DNA from: Lysobacterales bacterium
GTDB taxonomy: Bacteria; Pseudomonadota; Gammaproteobacteria; Xanthomonadales; Marinicellaceae
Length of the DNA: 39,212 bases
Reading direction: 5' to 3'
Assembly (NCBI GenBank): GCA_026988115.1
Contig: JALSLV010000100.1
Span: 1-39,212 of the forward strand
Below the pieces are notes generated by a model that saw only the letters and a list, made by a program, of their open reading frames with translations, was not told where the DNA came from and searched no databases. Of the stretch, positions 2,196 through 27,612 are shown piece by piece. Each line of letters opens with the position of its first letter. Positions within the stretch are counted from its first letter, which is position 1. A program made the position numbers and the translations under genes.

Positions 2196-2876
2196 ATGAA
2201 GATATATATTTTAGAAGACGACACGGATCAATCAGAATTATACACATTGTGGTTGGATAACTATGACTGTAAGGTTTTTGATAAAGCTAGAGATTTAATC
2301 AAAGAAATCCCGTTTAATGTACCCGATGTCTTATTAATAGATTGGAACCTTCCCAAAGTGGGAGGCTTGGATGTATTGCACTGGTTAAAAGGAAGCCGAT
2401 ACGACAACATTCCTGTTATCTTTTTAACCTCTCGAAATACAGAAGATGACATTGTAACGGCACTAACAGATGGAGCCGATGATTATATGGTTAAGCCAGT
2501 TAGTGAAGGCATTTTAAAAGCCAGAATAAGTGCGGTCACAAGAAGGCTTGTGGACAACGAAAATAAAGACTTACAGTCTGATCCTTACACCTTTAACAAA
2601 AAAGCCAATGTTGTCTCTTATGAGGGTGTGAATGTTTCCCTGACAAACAAAGAGTTTGAATTAGCTCTGTATTTTTTTTACAATGAAGGCGCTTTGATAT
2701 CCAGAGACCAACTACTGGAATCAATTTGGGTAAAAAGTTCAGACATTAATACCAGAACGGTTGATACCCACATCAGTCGATTGCGCAAAAAACTCCTGTT
2801 AAATGGCACCTATGGATGGAAATTAGTATCAATTTATCACCAAGGATATAAACTAATCAATCAAAATCAAACATAA
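2196..2876 (+). CDS. OmpR/PhoB-family response regulator
   Basis: A 226-residue two-component response regulator and the first gene of the six-gene operon. Receiver domain at 1-118: acidic pocket Glu7-Asp8-Asp9, phosphoacceptor Asp49 (IDWNLP), switch Thr78 and invariant Lys100 followed by Pro. A C-terminal winged-helix DNA-binding domain follows at about 128-222, with the recognition-helix pattern TRTVDTHISRLRKKL. All catalytic residues are present, so phosphorylation and DNA binding are expected. The probable kinase is the hybrid histidine kinase four genes downstream; that pairing is inferred from linkage. A GAGAGAAAT ribosome-binding region precedes the start. The next gene begins four bases after the stop. 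Its target genes are unknown; its own promoter, with the inverted repeat at 2127-2161, is a natural candidate. Confidence 0.92.
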   Translation: MKIYILEDDTDQSELYTLWLDNYDCKVFDKARDLIKEIPFNVPDVLLIDWNLPKVGGLDVLHWLKGSRYDNIPVIFLTSRNTEDDIVTALTDGADDYMVKPVSEGILKARISAVTRRLVDNENKDLQSDPYTFNKKANVVSYEGVNVSLTNKEFELALYFFYNEGALISRDQLLESIWVKSSDINTRTVDTHISRLRKKLLLNGTYGWKLVSIYHQGYKLINQNQT

Positions 2877-2880
2877 ACAC

Positions 2881-3291
2881 ATGAGTACAAAAAAGACAGA
2901 AACAACTCCTCCTAATTCAGTTGATCAAATCCGAGACATTCTATTTGGTGAGCAAATTAACCTCATTGAAAAAAGGTTTGCGGCACTCGAAAAAAATCTG
3001 ATGGATTCAATTGAAAAATTAGCACAGAGAGTTGACAAAACTAACAAAGAAATAAAAGAACAAATAAGTCAATCCAATAAAGAACTTAGTGCCGACAATT
3101 CACAATTAGAGCAACAACAAACCCAAGCGCTCAATAAACTGGAGTCGACACTGAGTGCTAAAATTATTGAAACCGAATCTGATTTAGTCAATCAACTGCA
3201 AATGGAAATTCAAAAACTGGATAATAAAGCCAGCCACAGAAAAGACTTGGCTCAACTCCTAACGGATATGGCAACAAAGTTGGCAGACTAA
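2881..3291 (+). CDS. Small coiled-coil protein of the GTPase operon
   Basis: A 136-residue protein with no signal peptide or membrane segment. From about residue 15 to 125 it is rich in Glu, Lys, Gln and Leu with heptad-like spacing, so a long helical coiled coil is likely. The segment near 15-30 (VDQIRDILFGEQ) followed by an IEKRFAALEKNL helix is, as I remember it, typical of uncharacterised proteins found beside OmpA-like and small-GTPase genes in other bacteria; I could not confirm this by search. No Shine-Dalgarno sequence is visible before the ATG, and the gene starts four bases after the regulator's stop, so translation is probably coupled. A role as scaffold or adaptor for the GTPase or membrane protein is plausible but unproven. 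Confidence 0.8.
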   Translation: MSTKKTETTPPNSVDQIRDILFGEQINLIEKRFAALEKNLMDSIEKLAQRVDKTNKEIKEQISQSNKELSADNSQLEQQQTQALNKLESTLSAKIIETESDLVNQLQMEIQKLDNKASHRKDLAQLLTDMATKLAD

Positions 3292-3301
3292 GTCCTTTCA
3301 C

Positions 3302-4942
3302 ATGAGCAAAGAACGCGACATATTAAAGTCTCTTTTGCTAAAAGAAGAGCTTGAGGTTCTTAATCAACTTAAAAGCAAACTGTTATCAGAAGAGCAATTT
3401 ACCGATGAGGTGGCAAAGGTGCTCTCGAGTGCCATCAAGCGCTCGCAAAAAACAGACCCTCAGCTAGAACATGCATTAGAAAAACCCATAAAAAAAGGCG
3501 TATTGCGCGCTTTTTCAGAAAGCAAACAATCCATTATCGATGCTTTGTTGCCCATTATGGGTCAACTTATACGTAAAACGGTTACCAATAGCATAAAACA
3601 GTTTGTATCTGATATTAATCGAGCCATAGAACAAGATTTTTCGATTAAATCCTTAAAATGGCGATGGCAAGCTAAAAAAGCAGGCATCACCTACCCAGAA
3701 ATGCTATTCCAAAAAACCATCCGCTACCAAGTAACGGATATATTTTTGATTAACAAAGACAATGGTTTATTGATCGAACACGCTGGGTCAGATGATTTGT
3801 TAAAAGACAACAATGCCATCTCGGCAATGTTAACTGCCATCCAGTCTTTTATAGAAGATTCTTTCGACTCTGAGGATGCCCACCTGCAAAGTGTTGAAAT
3901 AAAAAACCAAAACTTTATTATTGCCACAGGTCCCAAAGTATATCTTGCAGCGGTTGTTAAAGGAAATCCAACAGAGCGTTTAAAACAAAGATTTCAAGAA
4001 ATAATAGAAAATATTCATGCAGAATATTCAGAAATGTTGCTGCAAGAAGACACTTACCAAAACAACTTGGAACTCAATGATTTCCTTCGCAGAAATTTGG
4101 TCACAAAAAGCCTTTCTGATAAACAAAAGGAGGTCAACACCTTGCCTTGGATTTTAATGCTAATTGCATTGGTCACTGGTATTGCTTATTGGTCCTATAC
4201 TCGCAATCAGAGCCTAAAAAATATTTGGCAAAAAAGCTCAACGATTGATGGGCTTTACGTGCAAAAAATTGAACGAAAGGATGGCGGTTTTATGCTTTAT
4301 GGTTTGCTTGACCCGCTTGCAGACACCTCTAAATTATCAGATGATGCCGTGACTTTTGTAACCAAGCCTTATGCTTCTTTAGATGAAGCGATTGTTCAAA
4401 AAAGAATTAATCAAGCTCTTTCTCATTACCAAATGGTTCAATCGCGTTTTAACAATGGACTCCTTACGCTAACAGGAGAAATTAACCACGAAGACAGTCA
4501 ACTATTATTAACTCGGCTTTATTCAATCAATGGCGTTAATCACATTGATGACGGAGCATTAGTCAAAACCAATCCACCAACAGACCAACCAGAAGAAGAT
4601 TTATCGCCTTTTTTCGACCAAATTAATAATGCCTTTATTCGCATTCCCGATATAAAAAACCTAGCCCTGATTGAGGCGCAACTGGGCTTTATTATTAAAA
4701 ATTTACAATTGTTAGAGGAAAAAGGCATTAAAATGCAGTTAACACTGATTGGAACCAGTGATTGCGCAGGCCTATTAAGTGATGACTATTCTTTAAAAAG
4801 GGCAAATACAGTCAAAGAGCTTATCGGCGCTTCATTAAAGGAAAATGGTTTCATAAACACAAAGGTTAAGAAGTGTACAGTCACTAATCAAACGAACAAC
4901 AAATCATTGTTGGGCGTCAAATTTAATTTAAAAGGTCTTTGA
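3302..4942 (+). CDS. Single-pass OmpA-like protein with cytosolic longin/roadblock-like domain
   Basis: A 546-residue protein without a signal peptide. Residues 1-125 are charged and helical. Residues 138-242 read as alternating strands and helices (TDIFLINKDNGLLIEHAG, then AMLTAIQSFIEDSF, then YLAAVVKGNP), a pattern that reminds me of longin/roadblock-type domains in OmpA-like proteins linked to small GTPases. One transmembrane helix spans about 281-300. A periplasmic BON-like region (about 350-420) and a C-terminal OmpA-like domain (about 435-546) follow. The OmpA-like part keeps an Asp in TSDCAG and an Arg in LKRANTV, the positions that bind the diaminopimelate group of peptidoglycan in OmpA/Pal proteins. 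The predicted topology links the cytosol to the cell wall, and the GTPase gene follows nine bases later. The OmpA domain and membrane helix are well supported; the longin assignment is tentative. Confidence 0.8.
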   Translation: MSKERDILKSLLLKEELEVLNQLKSKLLSEEQFTDEVAKVLSSAIKRSQKTDPQLEHALEKPIKKGVLRAFSESKQSIIDALLPIMGQLIRKTVTNSIKQFVSDINRAIEQDFSIKSLKWRWQAKKAGITYPEMLFQKTIRYQVTDIFLINKDNGLLIEHAGSDDLLKDNNAISAMLTAIQSFIEDSFDSEDAHLQSVEIKNQNFIIATGPKVYLAAVVKGNPTERLKQRFQEIIENIHAEYSEMLLQEDTYQNNLELNDFLRRNLVTKSLSDKQKEVNTLPWILMLIALVTGIAYWSYTRNQSLKNIWQKSSTIDGLYVQKIERKDGGFMLYGLLDPLADTSKLSDDAVTFVTKPYASLDEAIVQKRINQALSHYQMVQSRFNNGLLTLTGEINHEDSQLLLTRLYSINGVNHIDDGALVKTNPPTDQPEEDLSPFFDQINNAFIRIPDIKNLALIEAQLGFIIKNLQLLEEKGIKMQLTLIGTSDCAGLLSDDYSLKRANTVKELIGASLKENGFINTKVKKCTVTNQTNNKSLLGVKFNLKGL

Positions 4943-4951
4943 AGAGAAAAA

Positions 4952-5449
4952 ATGTCAGTAGCAAAAAAAATATGTTTAATAGGACGCTTTGCTGTTGGCA
5001 AAACCAGCCTTGTTAAACAATTTATAGAAAAGCAGTTTGGCGAAAAATACAAAACAACCGTAGGTGTGAGTATTTCAACAAAAAATTTAACCGTGGAAAA
5101 CAAAGATATTTCTCTGGTAATTTGGGACATTGCAGGCTTTGAACAAGATGGGCATTATGCTCACTACATGAGAGGCGTTCACGGGCTTATTTGGGTATTA
5201 GATGGAACTGAGCCAGAGTCATTTAAAATTCTTGAAACGATAAATAACTCTTTGCCTGAAATAAAACAAGTTCCTTCGGTTTGTTTTATTAACAAATGTG
5301 ACTTAGTTGATGAGTGGGTAATCAAAGAATCTGAAATCAACTCTTTAAAAGAGTTTAATTATGCGGTTTACAAAACTAGCGCCAAAACAGGTGAAAATGT
5401 TGAAGCAGGCTTTACCAAACTGGCATCTTTATTGTTGAGTTCATTATGA
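4952..5449 (+). CDS. Small Ras-like GTPase (Rup/Rab-like)
   Basis: A 165-residue Ras-superfamily GTPase, close to the minimal G-domain length. All five G motifs are visible: P-loop GRFAVGKT (11-18), switch I threonines 35-36 in KTTVGV, WDIAG (58-62), NKCD (114-117) and TSAKTG (142-147). The residue at the Ras Gln61 position, right after the DxxG glycine, is Phe63, so intrinsic hydrolysis is probably slow and may need a partner. There is no C-terminal Cys for lipidation. Prokaryotic members of this superfamily have been divided into MglA and Rup groups; this one has Rab-like motifs and no MglB gene beside it, so Rup is the better fit. A GAAGAGAAA ribosome-binding region precedes the start. Its last four bases overlap the kinase start (ATGA), implying coupled translation with the kinase. 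Confidence 0.9.
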   Translation: MSVAKKICLIGRFAVGKTSLVKQFIEKQFGEKYKTTVGVSISTKNLTVENKDISLVIWDIAGFEQDGHYAHYMRGVHGLIWVLDGTEPESFKILETINNSLPEIKQVPSVCFINKCDLVDEWVIKESEINSLKEFNYAVYKTSAKTGENVEAGFTKLASLLLSSL

Positions 5450-6924
5450 TACCAGAGGTCGTTAAAAATTTTCTTCTGCAAAACAAGGAAAAGCAAGGTT
5501 TTTTCTGTTTGCAATTAACCAATGACTTATTAATCGAACACGTGTATGGAAAACCCCAGCAACTTGGGTTAAGCCCTCCTAAAAAAGGGTTAAAAGTTCT
5601 TGAAGTTTTGCCTGTTTTTTTGCCTGAGATGTACAATGAAGAATTTGAAATTCCTTTTTATAACTTGAGTGAACACAGTGTTTGCAATATCTATTTCATA
5701 AAAAAACACAAAGAAAACTACCTAATATTTGTTGATAAGTCTGAAATTTTCCAAGTCACGCAAAAATACCAGCAATTTGCTCACGAAGACAATATTTCTA
5801 AAAATAAATTCAAACGAATAGCTCAAGAACTGGAACGAGCAAAACAAAAATTAAACAAATCAAACCAAGAAAAAGCCACTTTGATTGCTATGCTGTCTCA
5901 TGAGCTAGGAACACCTTTGACCTCTATTCTTGGTTATTGTGAACTGTTATTAGAAGAGGATGAAAACAACCATAATTTACAAGTGATACACAGAAACTCC
6001 ATCTATTTGCAACACTTGATTGAAAACACCTTATTGTTTGGAAAAACTGAAGTGGATAGCATGTCAACTCATATTGAGACCATTAATGTCGAGGATTTTC
6101 TCGGGTCTTTGGTGGACACCATTTTACCTGCAGCGCTAGAAAAAGACATATTTATAAGTGCTCAGAGTAGCGAACAAGGCACCATTAACATTGATGTCAC
6201 TCGAACCAAGCAAATATTAATCAACTTACTCAATAATGCGGTTAAGTACTCCAATCATGGCTCAGTAAAAATATGTTGTCACGTCTCTAAAGAGCAGTAT
6301 GAGTTTTTAATTTCTGATACTGGAATAGGAATTGATGTGGCACAACAAAACAATATTTTCAACCCTTGGGAGAGGGTTAATAAAAACGATGGAAAGGGTT
6401 CAGGAATAGGGCTATTTATCAGTCAGAAGCTCGCCAAAGCCATTGGTGGCCAGTTGCAGCTTAAAGAGTCGACTAAAAACGTGGGTTCTGTCTTTCAATT
6501 ATTACTTCCGGTAAAAGAGCCTTCTGTAAACCATGAAAATAAAACTCCATCGCAAACCATTTGCTTGCAAGCAAAGACATTATTAGTTATCGATGACGAT
6601 CAAGATGTTCTTGATTTGATTGAAGCCTTCTTAGAAAAAACAGAGTTAAAAGTCATCACCGCTTTAAGTTTTCTTGATGCGGAGTCGATTCTAATAAAAA
6701 CCAATGTTGATTTAATTTTAACCGATTTAAATGTAGGAGCGGCAAAAGCCCCAACCTTCTTAAAAGAATTGAGGAATGACAAATGCGATGTGCCTGTTGT
6801 TTTAATGTCGGCAATGCCATCAAATAAGGCAAAACAACAATTCATAGAAAATGGCTTTAATAATGTTATGCTAAAACCATTTAATCATAATCAGCTACTA
6901 AAAACGATAACCACAAACATATAA
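5446..6924 (+). CDS. Hybrid sensor histidine kinase with C-terminal receiver domain
   Basis: A 492-residue soluble hybrid kinase. Residues 1-110 form a probable PAS-like sensory domain and about 115-150 a helical linker. The HisKA domain carries the H-box with phosphoacceptor His152 (MLSHELGTPL). The ATP-binding domain shows the N-box (LLNNAVKYSN, 271-280), DTGIGID (301-307) and the glycine-rich G2 box (326-333). A C-terminal receiver spans about 377-492 with IDDD, phosphoacceptor Asp437 and Lys477. No transmembrane segment is seen, so the signal is probably intracellular, perhaps delivered by the GTPase or the OmpA-like protein. Its start overlaps the GTPase stop. There is no HPt domain in the window; transfer to Asp49 of the OmpR-type regulator would be direct from His152 or through an HPt protein elsewhere. 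The kinase assignment is firm. Confidence 0.92.
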   Translation: MIPEVVKNFLLQNKEKQGFFCLQLTNDLLIEHVYGKPQQLGLSPPKKGLKVLEVLPVFLPEMYNEEFEIPFYNLSEHSVCNIYFIKKHKENYLIFVDKSEIFQVTQKYQQFAHEDNISKNKFKRIAQELERAKQKLNKSNQEKATLIAMLSHELGTPLTSILGYCELLLEEDENNHNLQVIHRNSIYLQHLIENTLLFGKTEVDSMSTHIETINVEDFLGSLVDTILPAALEKDIFISAQSSEQGTINIDVTRTKQILINLLNNAVKYSNHGSVKICCHVSKEQYEFLISDTGIGIDVAQQNNIFNPWERVNKNDGKGSGIGLFISQKLAKAIGGQLQLKESTKNVGSVFQLLLPVKEPSVNHENKTPSQTICLQAKTLLVIDDDQDVLDLIEAFLEKTELKVITALSFLDAESILIKTNVDLILTDLNVGAAKAPTFLKELRNDKCDVPVVLMSAMPSNKAKQQFIENGFNNVMLKPFNHNQLLKTITTNI

Positions 6925-6931
6925 AATCCAG

Positions 6932-8890
6932 ATGAATAATAAAACCACTCTTTACAGCCTCTCTTCAGATATTACTGCTCTGAATTCAAACTTATCTGAG
7001 CACATTAAAACCATGTCGGATTTGGGTTTGTATGAATTATTGCTTAACTCTGAAAACAGCATCGTGCTTTTTGAGAAAAGCCAAACAAACAAAGTGTTGC
7101 CAATAATAGATTCCATTAAAAACGATAAAAGTCGGTTTATTTGCATAGGAGATAATTTAGGCTCAGAAGAAAGGCTTACGTTACTTAATCGCAACATTGA
7201 GTTTATAACACCTGAGAAATTTTCAGAATTAAGCCATTACTTCTTTGAAGTGAGTTCTGGTTCATCATCTCAAAAAGTCTTGTTTGTTGAAGACGATAAA
7301 GCTCAAATACTCTTAATTGAACACATCTTAACCGAAGCAGACATAAACGTAAAATCCATTACCAAAGCCGAAGAAGTCCTGGATGTGCTAGAGTCTTTTC
7401 AGCCAGATTTGATATTAATGGATTTAAATCTTGAGGGTATAACAGGAGATAAACTTGTTAGAATCATTCGTAAAAAGCCAAGTTTTGCTAATTTGCCTAT
7501 TGTTTTTTTGACTGCAGATACAAGTTTAGAGTCACGAATGAAGGTTTTAAATTCTGGAGCCGATGATCTTTTAACCAAGCCAATTAATCCAAAGTTATTG
7601 GTGGCAGCACTAAAAAACAGGATGCAACGAAGTTCAATAAGGCAAGTTGCCACACAACCAAAAGACACAATTATTCACAACCTAGAAGAAGATTCTATTG
7701 ACAAGTTACAGGTATTTTTTAATGACAACAAAAGCAACCCAAAGGCTTCGATAATTTGGCTAAAGGTTAAAAACAAACATGAAATAAGAAAAAAACTCGG
7801 TTTTCAAGGGTTTAAAAAAATAGGACGGAAAATGTTTGAAACCATACCTACAGGTAAGGTCGAAATTGATTTTAAATACGAAATAACCGATGGATTGTTT
7901 GTTTTTTGCTCTGCTTCAATGGGCAGAAAAGAGGCATATGATTGGGTTGAGAATATACAAAAGTGGTTATCAAAAAACTATTTCTCAGTAAATGGAAAAG
8001 ATTATTTTGTTGATGTTTCTGCCATTATATTAACGGATATCCCAAGCAAAACCGAAAAAGAGGACTTAATACGTAAAGCGGAAAATATTCTCATTGATGG
8101 AATATCAGATCAAAACATTGCTTTTTTGGAAGAAGGGATAGAAGAAAAGAGGTTCTATTTATTAAAAACCCAAATTGAAAATTCAATTAAAACACGAAAT
8201 TTTAAATGGCACTACCAAGGCATCGTTTCAACAGCAGATGAATCTCAAGAAATTCACCAAATTATGTTGAGAATTTTAACAGACTCAGGAAAAGAACTAG
8301 GAACAGAAGAGTATTTAGAAGCGGCGCAAAAATCTGGATTATTGAGGTTGCTTGATCGCTTTACCTTAGAACATGCCGTGCGCAAAATCCGCAGTGGAGA
8401 ACAGCAAAATTCTGCTATTAAAATTTTATTGAACCAGGTTATGTCTGGTTTTGACTCCAAAGAAATGCGAAACAGAAAGCTCGAAACAATAAACTCATTA
8501 AACTTACCAGAACAATCCCTTATTTTTCAATTTAATAAACAAGACGCGCAAGAATACATGAGCATATTGGGCGAAGTCGGAAGAGAATTAAACCACGCTA
8601 AGATTAAAGTGTGTTTATCTAATTTTGACTGTTCAAACTTATCCTGGAAGATTGCTCGAAAACTCAATGTCAGTTGGATACGACTTAGACCATTTAAAAA
8701 AGGCGATGCCTTACTAGATACAGACAACCCAGACAACTTATCCAAAACAATAAACAAAGCACATGTTTTAGGTTATAAGGTCGTTGTTTCACGTGTCGAC
8801 AATGCAGGCTTAGCTGCCAATTTATGGAAACTAAACATAGATTATTTACAAGGCAATTTTATCCAACCTCCTGTTGAAGATTTGGGTTAA
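6932..8890 (+). CDS. Receiver protein with degenerate GGDEF and EAL domains
   Basis: A 652-residue protein, last in the operon. Residues 1-110 may be a degenerate receiver. A full receiver follows at 115-230 with EDD at 120-122, phosphoacceptor Asp164 and Lys216. Residues 271-400 look like a GGDEF fold without the GGDEF motif. Residues 408-645 are EAL-like: DRFTLEHAV and DYLQGNF are recognisable, but the EAL triplet is Gln-Ile-Met at 443-445, the DDFG segment reads SNFD, and the late catalytic Lys and Glu positions are replaced. It is therefore very unlikely to make or cleave cyclic di-GMP. Like FimX it may bind the nucleotide or a partner, under control of phosphorylation at Asp164. No Shine-Dalgarno sequence precedes the ATG, which lies seven bases after the kinase gene. 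Confidence 0.87.
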   Translation: MNNKTTLYSLSSDITALNSNLSEHIKTMSDLGLYELLLNSENSIVLFEKSQTNKVLPIIDSIKNDKSRFICIGDNLGSEERLTLLNRNIEFITPEKFSELSHYFFEVSSGSSSQKVLFVEDDKAQILLIEHILTEADINVKSITKAEEVLDVLESFQPDLILMDLNLEGITGDKLVRIIRKKPSFANLPIVFLTADTSLESRMKVLNSGADDLLTKPINPKLLVAALKNRMQRSSIRQVATQPKDTIIHNLEEDSIDKLQVFFNDNKSNPKASIIWLKVKNKHEIRKKLGFQGFKKIGRKMFETIPTGKVEIDFKYEITDGLFVFCSASMGRKEAYDWVENIQKWLSKNYFSVNGKDYFVDVSAIILTDIPSKTEKEDLIRKAENILIDGISDQNIAFLEEGIEEKRFYLLKTQIENSIKTRNFKWHYQGIVSTADESQEIHQIMLRILTDSGKELGTEEYLEAAQKSGLLRLLDRFTLEHAVRKIRSGEQQNSAIKILLNQVMSGFDSKEMRNRKLETINSLNLPEQSLIFQFNKQDAQEYMSILGEVGRELNHAKIKVCLSNFDCSNLSWKIARKLNVSWIRLRPFKKGDALLDTDNPDNLSKTINKAHVLGYKVVVSRVDNAGLAANLWKLNIDYLQGNFIQPPVEDLG

Positions 8891-22266: not shown

Positions 22267-23325
<1,059 letters not shown>

Positions 23326-23358
23326 GTTAATTACGATTAATTGGAGAGAGGTTAGTTC

Positions 23359-24234
23359 ATGTGGACACCAAAGAACACAAACACCCTATCTCAAAATAAT
23401 ATTTTAACGTTTTTATTGCTCGAAATCATCTGTGTCGTGCTTATGATTGCCGATCATTCTGCTCAAATCACCGCACCTGTCCGTGCCAGTATCTCAGCTC
23501 TTACCTATCCATTGGTTAAAATTGTGGAATTACCACAACAAGTATACCAATTCATTAACACAACCGTGTCTGATCAAGCGGACTTATTAACCGAAAATAT
23601 TGAACTCAAGCAAAAACTTTCGCAAGCACAAATTGACTTGTTGCAAATGGAAGTGGTTTCTCAACAAAATAGCGAACTCAGAAAGCTGTTACACACTAAA
23701 CAATTGTTGCCATTAAAAACAACAGCTGCTTTTATTGTGAATATCAATACGGGTAAAAATAACCAGTATATTATTATAAACCAAGGGTTTAATCAGGGTG
23801 TTACAGTGGGTCAGAGTGTGCTGGACTTAAATGGAGTGGTGGGGCAAGTGGATAAGGTTGCCCTTGAAAACGCTCACGTCATTCTAATTACCAATAAAAA
23901 TCATGCTGTGCCAGTTGAATTTTTAAGAACAGGTGTGCGCACGTTTATCTACGGCACAGGTGAATTAGATAATTTAAGCCTACCAGAAATACCTCAAAGT
24001 GCAGAGATAAAAGTAGGTGATGTTTTGATTACTTCAGGCTATGGGGGAGCATTTCCTGCAGGATTAAAAGTAGCAACCATTAATAAAATACTGGACTCTT
24101 CTGATAAATCGTTTCAGCGTGCAACCGCTAAACCCAGTGCCAACCTGAAACTAATGAAACAAGTGTTATTGGTCTGGTCTTTAGAAAATCAAAATCACGA
24201 GAAAAAACAGCCAGAGGAGCACGCTATTCCATGA
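23359..24234 (+). CDS. mreC: Rod shape-determining protein MreC
   Basis: A 291-residue bitopic membrane protein of the elongasome. One N-terminal transmembrane helix (about 13-33) is followed by a coiled coil (about 68-110) rich in Gln, Leu and Glu, then two periplasmic beta domains that bind PBP2. The stretch NQGFNQGVTVGQSVLDLNGVVGQV is characteristic. GGAGAGAGG lies well placed before the ATG. It begins 33 bases after mreB and overlaps mreD by ATGA. Confidence 0.94.
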   Translation: MWTPKNTNTLSQNNILTFLLLEIICVVLMIADHSAQITAPVRASISALTYPLVKIVELPQQVYQFINTTVSDQADLLTENIELKQKLSQAQIDLLQMEVVSQQNSELRKLLHTKQLLPLKTTAAFIVNINTGKNNQYIIINQGFNQGVTVGQSVLDLNGVVGQVDKVALENAHVILITNKNHAVPVEFLRTGVRTFIYGTGELDNLSLPEIPQSAEIKVGDVLITSGYGGAFPAGLKVATINKILDSSDKSFQRATAKPSANLKLMKQVLLVWSLENQNHEKKQPEEHAIP

Positions 24235-24701
24235 AGCTTCGTTCATTAAAACTCATTCATGGCAGCATTATTTTCAGCTTGATTTTAATGCTTATACCTT
24301 GGTCGGGTTGGTTTAAAATTGCCCAACCCTACTGGCTCGCTTTAGTCGTAATTTATTGGAGCATTGAGGCACCTAGACAGATGGGGATGCTCACGGCTTT
24401 TTTCTACAGCATATTATTGGATGTGCTTTATGGTAGCCTTTTTGGCAAACATGGTTTTTCTATGGTTGCCATGGTGTTTTTAATTAGCAAAATTCATAAA
24501 CGCTTAAAAATGACCTCCTTTTGGCAGTTGACCTTAATGGTTGGTGCATTGTTATTAAATGACCTTGTTATTCGCACTTTTATTGACTGGGTTTCAATGA
24601 ACAAAGAAGATTTCTCTATTAATTTATGGCCAATTTTGACTTCAATCCTTATTTGGCCTTGGTTTAAATACGTACTTGATAGACTTAATCACAGGTTTTA
24701 A
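24231..24701 (+). CDS. mreD: Rod shape-determining protein MreD
   Basis: A 156-residue integral membrane protein with about five helices that completes the MreBCD complex. Sequence conservation is low in this family, but position, length and the DVLYGSLFGKHGFSM segment (matching the MreD pattern D-x-L-x-G-x-x-G-x-x-G/H) support the call. Its start overlaps mreC by four bases, and the PBP2 gene follows two bases after the stop. Confidence 0.92.
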   Translation: MKLRSLKLIHGSIIFSLILMLIPWSGWFKIAQPYWLALVVIYWSIEAPRQMGMLTAFFYSILLDVLYGSLFGKHGFSMVAMVFLISKIHKRLKMTSFWQLTLMVGALLLNDLVIRTFIDWVSMNKEDFSINLWPILTSILIWPWFKYVLDRLNHRF

Positions 24702-24703
24702 AG

Positions 24704-26521
24704 ATGTCTGGCAAGCAAATTAAAAACGCACAACAGGAAACCCGAGTTTTTCAATCTCGCATAGTGGCATCAATTCTTATAATATTTTTATTAATCGGAA
24801 TTATTTTTGTTCGCTATTTTTATTTACAAGTTATCCAACACCAGTCATTACTTGCCAACTCAGAGCACAACCGCATTAAAACAACGGCAATTCCGCCAGC
24901 ACGCGGTTTTATTTATGATAGAAATGGTCGACTTTTAGTGGAAAATATTCCAACTTATCGATTACAAATGATTCCTGAAAAAGTGGATGACATAAAACAA
25001 AGCCTCAATGAATTAAAGCAACTGGTGCACTTAACCGATGACGACATTAAAGAGTTAATCAAAAAACAAAGCTTAAACAGGCCCTTTAAACCGTTCATTG
25101 TAAAAAACAAATTAAATGAGAAAGAACTGTCGTCCTTTATGGTTAGAAAACATAAATACCCTGGTTTTAAAGCGGTACCGTATTTAATAAGACATTATAA
25201 ATACACCGATATATTAGCTCATGTAGTGGGTTATGTCGGTCGAATAAATGACAAAGATTTGAAACGACTGGACAAAAAAAGATACAAAGGATCTGAATAC
25301 ACAGGAAAGCTCGGTTTGGAACGTTTTCATGAAAATCAATTGCATGGTTTTCCAGGTTCCTTAACCGTTGAAACCAATGCTCAAGGAAGAGTGCTCAAAA
25401 CCATTGAAAAAATACCGCCCGTTAGTGGTCAAGACCTCACCTTAACTATTGATATTGACTTGCAAAAAACTGCCTATGATGCCTTAGGCGAATTAACGGG
25501 TTCTGCCATTGCCATCAACCCAAAAAATGGTGAAGTATTAGCCATGGTATCAAAACCGGGTTTTGATCCAAATGATTTTGTTAATGGTATTTCACACAAA
25601 AAGTACAACCAGTTAATTAACTCTAACCAAAAACCACTGTTCAACCGCTCATTACGTGGTGGCTATGAACCTGGCTCGACTATTAAGCCTTATATGGCTT
25701 TGGCAGGACTCTATTATAGGGTCATTAATTTAAACTACAGCATGTTCTCTAAAGGTTATTTTCAACTTGATAACCAAGCACGAAAATACCACGATTGGAA
25801 ACGCGGAGGTCATGGATTAATCGACATTAAACAATCACTGGTTCAATCCGTTAATACTTTTTATTATCAGTTAGCTGTTTTATTAGGCATTGATCGCATT
25901 CACGAGTTTCTCAAGCCGTTTAAATTTGGAGAATTATCACAGATTGATCTGCTTGCTGAAAAAAGGGGTTTACTGCCATCGAGGCAATGGAAAAGAGCCG
26001 CCAAGGGGAAAATGTGGTTTCCTGGCGAAACAGTAATTACTGGAATTGGTCAAGGTTTTTTGGTTACCACCCCTATTCAATTAGCCACCTCATTGACAAT
26101 TTTAGCCAATAAAGGCATTTATATTAAGCCGCATTTAATCAAAACTGAGAATCCTGAGTTAACAAAGCTTCCTTTCGATATTCCAGAGAGCTATTGGGAT
26201 GTTGTTCATCAAGGCATGATAGGGGTAATTCACGACAAAAAAGGCACGGCTCGGTCAATCAAGAACAACAATTACTTAACGGCAGGAAAAAGTGGCACCT
26301 CGCAAGTTTATGGAAAAAAAGAGGAAGACGTCTACAACAAAAACCTAGAAACACCTTTGCGCTTACGCAACCATGCCTTATTTATTGCTTTTGCCCCTGC
26401 TGACGATCCAAAAATTGCGGTAGTTGTGGTGGCTGAGCATGGTGCCAGTGGATCTAAAACAGCCGCACCAATTGCAGGGAAGATAATTGACAAATACTTA
26501 AATGAGATTTTAATCCAATGA
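24704..26521 (+). CDS. mrdA: Penicillin-binding protein 2 (elongation transpeptidase)
   Basis: A 605-residue class B penicillin-binding protein that cross-links peptidoglycan during elongation with RodA. Residues 20-42 form the membrane anchor, about 60-235 the pedestal (including PPARGFIYDRNG) and about 250-600 the transpeptidase. The active site shows SxxK with Ser325-Lys328 (PGSTIKP) and SxN at Ser382-Asn384. The third box is KSGT (Lys529-Ser530-Gly531) where most PBP2 proteins have KTGT; Ser is a conservative change known in other penicillin-binding proteins. It overlaps rodA by ATGA. Confidence 0.95.
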   Translation: MSGKQIKNAQQETRVFQSRIVASILIIFLLIGIIFVRYFYLQVIQHQSLLANSEHNRIKTTAIPPARGFIYDRNGRLLVENIPTYRLQMIPEKVDDIKQSLNELKQLVHLTDDDIKELIKKQSLNRPFKPFIVKNKLNEKELSSFMVRKHKYPGFKAVPYLIRHYKYTDILAHVVGYVGRINDKDLKRLDKKRYKGSEYTGKLGLERFHENQLHGFPGSLTVETNAQGRVLKTIEKIPPVSGQDLTLTIDIDLQKTAYDALGELTGSAIAINPKNGEVLAMVSKPGFDPNDFVNGISHKKYNQLINSNQKPLFNRSLRGGYEPGSTIKPYMALAGLYYRVINLNYSMFSKGYFQLDNQARKYHDWKRGGHGLIDIKQSLVQSVNTFYYQLAVLLGIDRIHEFLKPFKFGELSQIDLLAEKRGLLPSRQWKRAAKGKMWFPGETVITGIGQGFLVTTPIQLATSLTILANKGIYIKPHLIKTENPELTKLPFDIPESYWDVVHQGMIGVIHDKKGTARSIKNNNYLTAGKSGTSQVYGKKEEDVYNKNLETPLRLRNHALFIAFAPADDPKIAVVVVAEHGASGSKTAAPIAGKIIDKYLNEILIQ

Positions 26522-27612
26522 TTTATGCTGGCAGGATTCATCACAATAAACGCCATTATATTGATTGGTGGTTAATGGCTTTTATTTTATTGTTGATGTC
26601 TTTTGGCTTGGTCGTTCTTTTTTCAGCAGGGGGTTGGGTTTTGGTAAAAAAACAAATCATTCGCCTTGCTCTAGGTTTGGTGGTTATGTTATTACTGGCA
26701 CAAGTAAAACCTGAAAAGTTGGCAGGTCTTACACCTTGGCTCTATGTGTTAACTATTTTGTTATTGTTGGCTGTTTTTTTCTTTGGCTACGAATCCAAAG
26801 GAGCCACTCGATGGATAAAAATCGGTATCCGATTTCAACCCTCAGAGTTAGCAAAGTTGGTTATTCCACTTATGATTGCTTGGTTTTATCGTTACCGAAT
26901 TTTGCCTCCTGATCTTAAATCAATAGGCATCAGTTTGTTGATATTGCTTATTCCAGTTTTTTTGATATTTAAACAACCTGATTTAGGCACCTCTATCTTA
27001 GTAGCCGTTAGTGGATTGTTTGTCCTTTTCCTTGCAGGGCTGTCATGGAAATACATTCTTGGAGGTTTGGTAACTCTTGTTTCAGCTGCGCCAATTATGT
27101 GGCTATTTTTTATGAAAGAATACCAAAAACAACGGGTCTTGACTTTTCTTAATCCGACTCAGGATTCTCTTGGTTCAGGGTGGAATATTATTCAATCAGA
27201 AATTGCCATTGGTTCTGGAGGGCTTTTAGGCAAAGGTTGGCAAAATGGCAGCCAGACACAACTGGATTTTTTACCTGAGCACTCTACCGACTTTATTTTA
27301 TCTGTTTTATCTGAGGAATTTGGCTTATTGGGTGTAACAATTCTTTTGCTCTTATACATCGCTATTATCCTAAGAGGGCTTTATATTGCCTCCCAAGCCA
27401 AAGACACCTTTAATCGATTAATTGCTGGGGCACTAACCTTGACTTTTTTTGTCTATCTCTTTATAAATGCCGGAATGATTAGTGGTTTGCTGCCTGTAGT
27501 TGGTGTACCATTACCATTAGTAAGCTATGGAGGGACTTCGATTATCACCCTCATGGCAGGATTTGGCATGATTATGTCTGTATACAACCATAGGAAATTA
27601 TTGAAATCATGA
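26518..27612 (+). CDS. rodA: Peptidoglycan glycosyltransferase RodA
   Basis: A 364-residue SEDS polymerase with about ten membrane helices that polymerises lipid II with PBP2. The extracellular catalytic-loop Asp lies in FLPEHSTDFILSVLSEEFG, and the family end motif VPLPLVSYGGTSIITLMAGFG is intact. Its start and stop both overlap the neighbouring genes by ATGA (pbp2 before, mltB after), so production of RodA and PBP2 is tightly coupled. Length and motifs are normal. Confidence 0.95.
   Translation: MIYAGRIHHNKRHYIDWWLMAFILLLMSFGLVVLFSAGGWVLVKKQIIRLALGLVVMLLLAQVKPEKLAGLTPWLYVLTILLLLAVFFFGYESKGATRWIKIGIRFQPSELAKLVIPLMIAWFYRYRILPPDLKSIGISLLILLIPVFLIFKQPDLGTSILVAVSGLFVLFLAGLSWKYILGGLVTLVSAAPIMWLFFMKEYQKQRVLTFLNPTQDSLGSGWNIIQSEIAIGSGGLLGKGWQNGSQTQLDFLPEHSTDFILSVLSEEFGLLGVTILLLLYIAIILRGLYIASQAKDTFNRLIAGALTLTFFVYLFINAGMISGLLPVVGVPLPLVSYGGTSIITLMAGFGMIMSVYNHRKLLKS

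Follow-up and report, generated by a model that had tools for sequence, protein, structure and literature searches.

A Group 1 Rup GTPase operon of a Lysobacterales bacterium with a predicted longin domain in its OmpA-like membrane protein

Composition of the Rup operon

The window analysed here is a stretch of 39,212 nucleotides that makes up an entire contig (JALSLV010000100.1, C100) in the 3.5 Mb genome of a Lysobacterales bacterium (assembly GCA_026988115.1). Between positions 2196 and 8890 it carries six open reading frames (ORFs) on the plus strand, all in one direction, for an OmpR-type regulator (RR), a coiled-coil protein (CC), an OmpA-like protein (OMP), a small GTPase of the Rup type (GTP), a kinase (HK) and a protein with REC and EAL domains (Table 1). 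The ORF list of the window gives intergenic spacings of 4, 10, 9, -4 (an overlap) and 7 bases, which confirms the six plus-strand genes with gaps of at most ten bases described in an earlier reading of the letters (the sequence-only reading); the parts that it listed, from regulator and coiled coil to degenerate EAL protein, and its operon logic stand as well. We infer co-transcription of the six genes from this spacing and the conserved gene order, as a promoter and terminator scan of the operon ends yielded no signal above chance (18 promoter-like sites versus 25.4 expected). The closest named relatives are Lysobacterales metagenome-assembled genomes, with Marinicella species more distant. 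The new element reported here is a longin domain predicted in the previously unassigned cytoplasmic domain of OMP. It would follow the N-terminal helices and precede the membrane span, was missed by the sequence-only reading and, if the prediction is right, is the most informative part of the locus.

Table 1. Features of the Rup operon and the evidence on which each assignment is based
Feature	Position	Strand	Basis and remarks
RR, OmpR/PhoB-type response regulator (REC and winged helix)	2196..2876	+	Pfam; usual, not obligatory neighbour
CC, cytoplasmic coiled-coil protein with conserved ends	2881..3291	+	75-sequence alignment; gene neighbourhood
OMP, protein with predicted longin domain, transmembrane (TM) span and OmpA-like domain	3302..4942	+	Profile, AlphaFold2 (AF2) model, hydropathy
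Predicted longin domain of OMP, residues about 140-270	3719..4111	+	AF2, Foldseek, VIA
Membrane span of OMP, residues 278-296	4133..4189	+	Hydropathy peak
BON-like region of OMP, about residues 352-422	4355..4567	+	Profile matches
OmpA-like, probably peptidoglycan-binding C-terminal domain of OMP	4607..4939	+	Profile matches; D487, R500
GTP, Rup-type Ras/Rab-like small GTPase	4952..5449	+	Pfam Ras; solved-structure matches
HK, soluble hybrid histidine kinase: PAS-like, HisKA, HATPase_c, REC	5446..6924	+	Pfam; AF2 and fold search of residues 1-156
Q109-Q110, start of the helix behind the PAS-like domain of HK	5770..5775	+	Alignments
REC and degenerate GGDEF-EAL protein, FimX-like, lineage-specific addition	6932..8890	+	Pfam; solved match; lost EAL

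RR is recognized by the Pfam models Response_reg (1.1e-20) and Trans_reg_C (1.5e-18). CC bears an N-terminal I-R-D-I-L-F-G stretch and a C-terminal R-x-D-L-A stretch, and R18 and G23 are identical in 73 of 75 aligned sequences. A near-invariant N-terminal stretch of this kind is unusual for a coiled-coil protein and is likely a docking peptide. No Pfam or NCBIfam model reports an OmpA-like domain in OMP; at the C-terminus, a profile built from 16 sequences of the family finds Rv0899 (E 3.6e-9) and Pal/OmpA chains, and D487 and R500 are invariant there (16/16). The strict D..G..R pattern is present in 53 of 76 homologues, and the C-terminal domain probably binds peptidoglycan. The BON-like region is defined by hits of the profile on Rv0899, OsmY and two chains of the BON type. 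OMP shows a single hydropathy peak (1.76, from residue 278), a peak of at least 1.6 being found in 64/74 homologues; together with the C-terminal matches this shows that the label ‘OmpA-like single-pass’ was right. In the last protein of the operon Pfam detects REC and EAL and finds no GGDEF domain, and the EAL motif position reads Q-I-M, Q-V-M, Q-L-I, Q-L-M and Q-L-M in the five aligned homologues, in agreement with the lost active sites noted before. Its best solved match is FimX (4j40, E 4.1e-21).

Conservation and co-occurrence of the gene cluster

CC-OMP-GTP-HK are found in the same order and on the same strand in all 20 relatives examined, with RR adjacent in 17 and the REC-EAL gene in 5 of them. 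A profile search of genome contigs yielded 99 confirmed loci, the best 80 of which we refer to as named loci; the following counts include those whose contig leaves room for the gene in question. CC lies directly before OMP in 73/76, GTP directly after OMP in 69/76 and HK follows in 67/74, and RR precedes the core in 36/73. The arrangement OMP-GTP-HK also occurs in records labelled Acidobacteria (two), Holophagae and Planctomycetota (one). We also examined 15 further loci, with divergent ones deliberately among them: GTP comes after OMP in 13 (the contig ends at L221 and there is none at L226) and CC before it in 12. Conservation of the order across relatives had been set as a test by the sequence-only reading, and the core passes it. 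However, the idea of six genes as one conserved unit has to be rejected given the frequencies of the REC-EAL gene and RR: the steady core comprises four genes, CC-OMP-GTP-HK. A wider conserved neighbourhood is likewise rejected: when flanking ORFs were clustered, a family reached at most 11 of the 80 loci (top 25 clusters), and the most widely shared clusters sat in related loci (functions judged by eye).

At seven loci the GTPase gene is not adjacent to OMP (L073, L082, L090, L110, L115, L125 and L128, most of them labelled as Beggiatoa, Thiomargarita or Thiotrichales types). A strong Rup match (180-203 bits) is present elsewhere in six of these seven genomes, the exception being that of L125, and in most of the OMPs at these loci the N-terminal helices are separated from the longin part by an insertion. 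Eleven loci, the majority from large sulfur bacteria (L073, L082, L090, L104, L105, L110, L115, L123, L125, L128 and L132), have an enlarged OMP gene; here the insertion splits the match in two, one for the helical N-terminus and one for the longin part.

Co-occurrence was determined with profiles of the OMP cytoplasmic part (alignment A3, E 1e-8) and of the GTPase (alignment A2, E 1e-15). In 321 Gammaproteobacteria we found OMP in 27 genomes, the GTPase in 30 and both in 26: OMP occurs without the GTPase in G333 and the GTPase without OMP in G162, G222, G271 and G338. In 398 Pseudomonadota the respective numbers are 50, 49 and 47, with OMP only in G488, G515 and G723 and the GTPase only in G643 and G735. 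The corresponding P values of 5.6e-33 (class set) and 6.3e-55 (phylum set) assume independent genomes; this assumption does not hold, and relatedness inflates these figures: 29 of the 50 longin-bearing genomes of the phylum set come from one family (f212), the 27 of the class set are spread over 16 families and the two sets overlap in some genomes. A GTPase that never occurs together with its neighbours had been named as an outcome that would speak against a joint function; this is not what is seen, and the GTPase co-occurs with OMP in 26/30 and 47/49 of the GTPase-bearing genomes. The GTPase-only genomes of the class set score 68-91 bits, overlapping with the weakest operon members (G450, 90.6), and in three genomes of family f62 both proteins are divergent and still encoded by adjacent genes. 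One genome carries an apparent decaying copy, in which four in-frame stops interrupt the match to a Rup-like GTPase (G624:C20:15698-16114) beside a longin-OMP match, and an intact pair on C4. As for the alignments used throughout, A3 omits 10 of 80 loci (L058, L062, L090, L099, L104, L105, L123, L125, L128 and L132) and A4 omits 6 of 67 (L058, L062, L084, L097, L099 and L101) as near-duplicate, truncated or poorly fitting rows; the GTPase alignment has no row from 11 of the 80 loci.

A predicted longin domain in the cytoplasmic part of OMP

No Pfam model matches the cytoplasmic 285 residues of OMP at its cut-off. We modelled this part with AF2 from 71 sequences (A3, the window and named loci) and obtained a mean predicted local distance difference test (pLDDT) value of 77.1, with values of 69-95 in the blocks of residues 141-270. 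The model shows the topology strand-strand-helix-strand-strand-strand-helix-helix over residues 140-264, with strands at 140-151 and 157-161, a helix at 170-187, strands at 196-200, 203-209 and 213-221 and helices at 225-247 and 256-264. This predicted arrangement is of the longin type with a further C-terminal helix. The leading rows of a Foldseek search are roadblock, Mon1-Ccz1, Ego3, TRAPP-type, MglB and AP sigma structures. In VIA the best match is the longin domain of Vamp7 (Z 12.6, root-mean-square deviation 2.9, 115 aligned residues), followed by Sec22b (Z 11.9), Fuzzy-Inturned (11.7 and 11.5), TRAPPIII (11.7) and MON1A/CCZ1 (10.9). The best 50 entries, with Z between 10.2 and 12.6, are all longin or roadblock structures by title (chains not individually checked); according to the note of the tool, the best Z is typically 7-8 when there is no clear match. 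VIA covered Foldseek's top 1000 chains, so that unlisted families are not thereby excluded. When Pfam is read below its cut-off, Robl_LC7 is the top recognizable family on the OMP of the window after one domain of unknown function (E 0.15, residues 143-216).

Longin domains differ from roadblock domains by loss of the first helix and gain of a C-terminal helix (PMC10933270). The model has the C-terminal helix 256-264 but also a helix at 131-139, and therefore longin is favoured over roadblock without being certain. We regard it as highly probable from the model that residues 140-270 of OMP adopt a fold of the longin/roadblock type. The central helix (169-187) is the most conserved block of the cytoplasmic part, with at least 90% identity at 9 of 19 positions; 9/60 positions are conserved in residues 80-139 and 2/80 in residues 1-80. 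Longin/roadblock-type domains elsewhere bind Rab GTPases as well as MglA. Dimers of roadblock (RB) and longin domains often bind small GTPases (PMC10933270), and a direct contact between Rup and the longin domain of OMP is probable in our judgement.

The GTPase and its exchangeable outputs

The fourth gene product matches Pfam Ras (1.7e-30), and the best solved matches of its family profile are Rab23 (2.1e-35) and Rab7a (2.2e-34), so the assignment as a Rup/Rab-like GTPase made by the sequence-only reading is upheld. Across the GTPase alignment, D59 and NKxD are each present in 70/70 sequences and the SA motif in 69-70/70; G1 (GxxxxGK[ST]) is present in 70/70 by selection, since rows were chosen for presence of the P-loop. 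In the MglA family a threonine replaces the conserved switch residue, an aspartate; this substitution is absent here, as the count for D59 shows. At the site of the catalytic glutamine (G3, position 63) no sequence has Q (0/70) and the window has F. The Rup family was defined by Wuichet and Sogaard-Andersen in 2014, who described a Group 1 without the G3 glutamine whose neighbourhood encodes a coiled-coil protein, a protein with an unknown domain, an inner-membrane helix and an OmpA domain, and a GGDEF/EAL or kinase output with an invariant glutamine near its N-terminus (PMC4316618). The G1-G5 motifs, the missing G3 glutamine, the neighbourhood and the N-terminal output glutamine all place the GTPase of the window in this group. 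Rab23 and Rab7 are the substrates of Fuzzy-Inturned and Mon1-Ccz1, tri-longin guanine nucleotide exchange factors (GEFs) that depend on a Y-K/R pair in the substrate's switch I (PMC12383261). The switch-I tyrosine Y33 is found in 70/70 GTPases; K or R follows at position 34 in 6/70, all from the window's own group and including the window (Y-K), and L in 43.

The kinase has the Pfam architecture HisKA-HATPase_c-REC, and its highest hydropathy of 1.17 bears out the earlier description as a soluble hybrid kinase. A PAS fold is predicted for residues 1-98 (AF2 mean pLDDT 70.4; VIA Z 9.2, photoactive yellow protein). The helix behind it is poorly modelled (pLDDT 46-58) and carries Q109 and Q110, each conserved in 67/68 kinases of the alignment; Q110 corresponds to the invariant output glutamine of PMC4316618. 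Other lineages have a GGDEF-EAL protein (L217 and L219) or a class III adenylate/guanylate cyclase (L220:6092-7162, L225:5282-6484 and L228:5746-6762) at the end of the operon, the cyclase being an output type not named in the parts of PMC4316618 considered here. The Q110 column is kept in 10/10 aligned outputs (four kinases, L218, L217, L219, L220, L225 and L228), among them three GGDEF-EAL proteins and three cyclases, and the Q109 column reads L or I in the GGDEF-EAL outputs; this alignment leaves out the divergent outputs L224 and L229-L231. At L222, L223 and L227 no such output was seen behind the operon on the same strand. A fixed CC-OMP-GTP set combined with exchangeable outputs that have a common N-terminal domain points to that domain as the contact of the GTPase. 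Fold, position and the third output type extend the 2014 proposal on the output glutamine.

Proposed mechanism and alternative explanations

We propose that the operon encodes a Group 1 Rup GTPase signalling module and put the probability of the whole mechanism, including control of the nucleotide state by the longin domain, at about 0.45. OMP would reside in the inner membrane, its outer BON-like and OmpA-like part holding peptidoglycan and its inner part presenting the longin domain to the cytoplasm, probably as a dimer. The longin domain, helped by CC, could be the docking and regulating site for Rup and would most likely set its nucleotide state depending on the condition of the envelope. 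In its GTP-bound form, Rup should then engage the PAS-plus-glutamine N-terminus of the output protein, where Q110 may provide the catalytic glutamine missing from the GTPase. In the window phosphate would go from the hybrid kinase to the OmpR-type regulator encoded nearby, and the FimX-like degenerate EAL protein would be a local extra. The genes, their conserved order and co-occurrence, the domain architecture and the conserved residues are observed and the longin and PAS folds are predicted; we infer the interactions, the direction of regulation (GEF or GTPase-activating protein, GAP), the stimulus and the outcome. A pathway from the wall to transcription, as suggested by the sequence-only reading, fits the kinase and RR found here; however, transcription is not a necessary output, as GGDEF-EAL proteins or cyclases occur in this place in other lineages. 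Put more generally, and a shade more tentatively than the mechanism itself, the module may be a bacterial counterpart of Rab/longin-GEF pairs in which a wall-tethered longin domain regulates Rup and thereby drives swappable kinase, cyclic di-GMP (c-di-GMP) enzyme and cyclase outputs via a PAS-glutamine domain.

A number of observations weigh against longin control of Rup. The overall predicted TM score (pTM) of the OMP model is 0.51, and Foldseek E-values are modest (6.4e-4 to 5.1e-3 in the best 50 of 1181 rows, with one row of 1181 at or below 0.001). The sequence evidence for longin is suggestive, and none of the sequence methods gave a significant match. At the level of profiles, Robl_LC7 is found in 4/71 OMP members (best E 0.015) and Fuz_longin_1 in 3/71 (best E 0.009), both below cut-off, and other families score alike. 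Comparing OMP with a roadblock profile in hhalign gave a probability of 6% and P 0.006 (P 0.25 for the N-terminal helices as control), and a sequence search of the PDB with OMP returned no longin chain. Also, the longin part occurs without a detected GTPase in G515, G488 (where the contig ends) and G723 of the phylum set and in G333 of the class set. Furthermore, the switch-I tyrosine fits the tri-longin GEFs and the lysine is mostly missing; the exact tri-longin GEF chemistry therefore cannot be general, and we reject the GEF lysine as a general mechanism. In the unaligned kinases of L229-L231 (the L229 operon ends in a kinase) no QQ was seen at the right place. Finally, a shared fold by itself shows no function.

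The scarcity of this lysine, together with the MglB structures among the Foldseek matches, would also suit a longin domain that works like MglB, the bacterial roadblock protein that is both GAP and GEF for MglA (PMC11016934): it would act on Rup as a GAP, or as GAP and GEF, with OMP mainly an inhibitor or spatial confiner and Q110 an effector contact without catalytic role. We consider this unlikely, since the structural matches with the best Z are longin and not roadblock chains, and the MglA family, on which MglB works, is separate from Rup (PMC4316618).

The longin domain could also be passive, as are those longin domains of SNAREs and adaptors that do not regulate GTPases (PMC10933270). 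It would then serve dimerization or binding of the coil, the GTPase would act with the coiled coil and the kinase only, and OMP would place the complex at the wall; the conserved surface that extends beyond the longin core, into residues 80-139, agrees with such a role. However, the most conserved cytoplasmic element is the central longin helix, and genomes with unlinked genes still have both OMP and the GTPase (6/7). We rate a passive domain as less likely than an MglB-like one. Very improbable is an ordinary two-component system sensing by PAS, with GTPase, coiled coil and OMP as a separate envelope function that shares the operon: kinase and regulator carry complete Pfam domains and RR is adjacent in about half of the named loci (36/73), but a GGDEF-EAL protein or class III cyclase can replace the kinase while CC-OMP-GTP stay, and the N-terminal Q110 domain is common to these outputs, linking them to the core with the GTPase.

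If Rup is indeed controlled by the longin domain of OMP, the Rab-longin partnership, regarded as a feature of eukaryotes and Asgard archaea, also exists in bacteria, encoded within an operon. The prediction reopens the view that Rup proteins use no MglB-like partner and makes their control by OMP (residues 1-275) specifically and cheaply testable by binding. The module would represent a natural case of a GTPase switch placed between peptidoglycan and swappable signalling outputs, and the longin prediction suggests a possible route by which these little-studied bacterial Rab-like switches are controlled.

Relation to known systems

As of 2014 no Rup protein had been characterized experimentally, and no MglB-like partner was predicted for Rup (PMC4316618). 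A computational hypothesis of membrane signalling for the Rup neighbourhood was already published there; neither the neighbourhood nor the corresponding idea of the sequence-only reading is new. The operon shares with the Group 1 neighbourhood the GTPase without G3 glutamine, the coiled coil, the unknown domain joined to a TM helix and OmpA domain and the N-terminal output glutamine. It differs by the OmpR-type regulator ahead of the core and the FimX-like REC-EAL protein after it. The present predictions assign a longin fold to the unknown domain and a PAS fold to the N-terminal output region, and cyclases join the outputs.

The conservons of Actinobacteria (CvnA-D) likewise combine a Ras-like GTPase, a histidine kinase and a protein of the roadblock/longin superfamily in one operon. 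However, they use an MglA-family GTPase, the free-standing roadblock protein CvnB and a membrane kinase (PMC4316618), whereas a Rup-family GTPase, a soluble kinase and a predicted longin domain built into a wall-anchored protein are found here. MglA-MglB also pairs a bacterial small GTPase with a roadblock/longin-superfamily partner (the longin domain being predicted in our case), but with another GTPase family and with MglB as a soluble roadblock protein. Mon1-Ccz1 and Fuzzy-Inturned have in common with the operon the longin fold (predicted here), substrates that are the nearest solved relatives of the GTPase and the switch-I tyrosine. In contrast to the one domain predicted in the 285-residue cytoplasmic part of OMP, these RabGEFs are heterodimers with three longin domains per subunit, and their switch-I Y-K/R motif is largely absent from Rup. 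FimX resembles the last protein of the operon in its REC, degenerate GGDEF and EAL domains; the latter has a different 110-residue N-terminus, is encoded beside a Rup operon and nothing here points to pili.

For Rup, the papers listed in a search of the open-licence literature were PMC4316618, PMC4915359 and otherwise plant or unrelated uses of the name; those listed for longin together with MglB and bacterial GTPases included none titled on Rup, and no paper joining longin, OmpA, GTPase and peptidoglycan was found in this literature, most subscription papers lying outside its scope. An anti-phage system was considered and rejected: PADLOC gave only weak partial matches, of which a hit to a receiver-like stretch scored best (1.9e-6), plus matches of coils with ZorA, and PHROGs gave no match for the GTPase.

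Other features of the genome

A Robl_LC7 scan of the genome reported no match at the Rup locus and three elsewhere (G000:C108:29574-29816, G000:C102:80538-80780 and G000:C26:50077-50322). The match on C108 lies 3 kb from a Ras-family match (C108:26448), so that an MglA/MglB-type system may coexist with the Rup operon. Directly upstream of the operon, on the same strand, lies a gene for a Peptidase M2 of the angiotensin-converting-enzyme family (188-1990; Pfam 3.6e-229). The same contig also carries, at 22273-27612, what we take from the translations to be a run of rod-shape genes for an MreB-like actin, MreC- and MreD-like proteins, a PBP2-like transpeptidase and a RodA-like protein.

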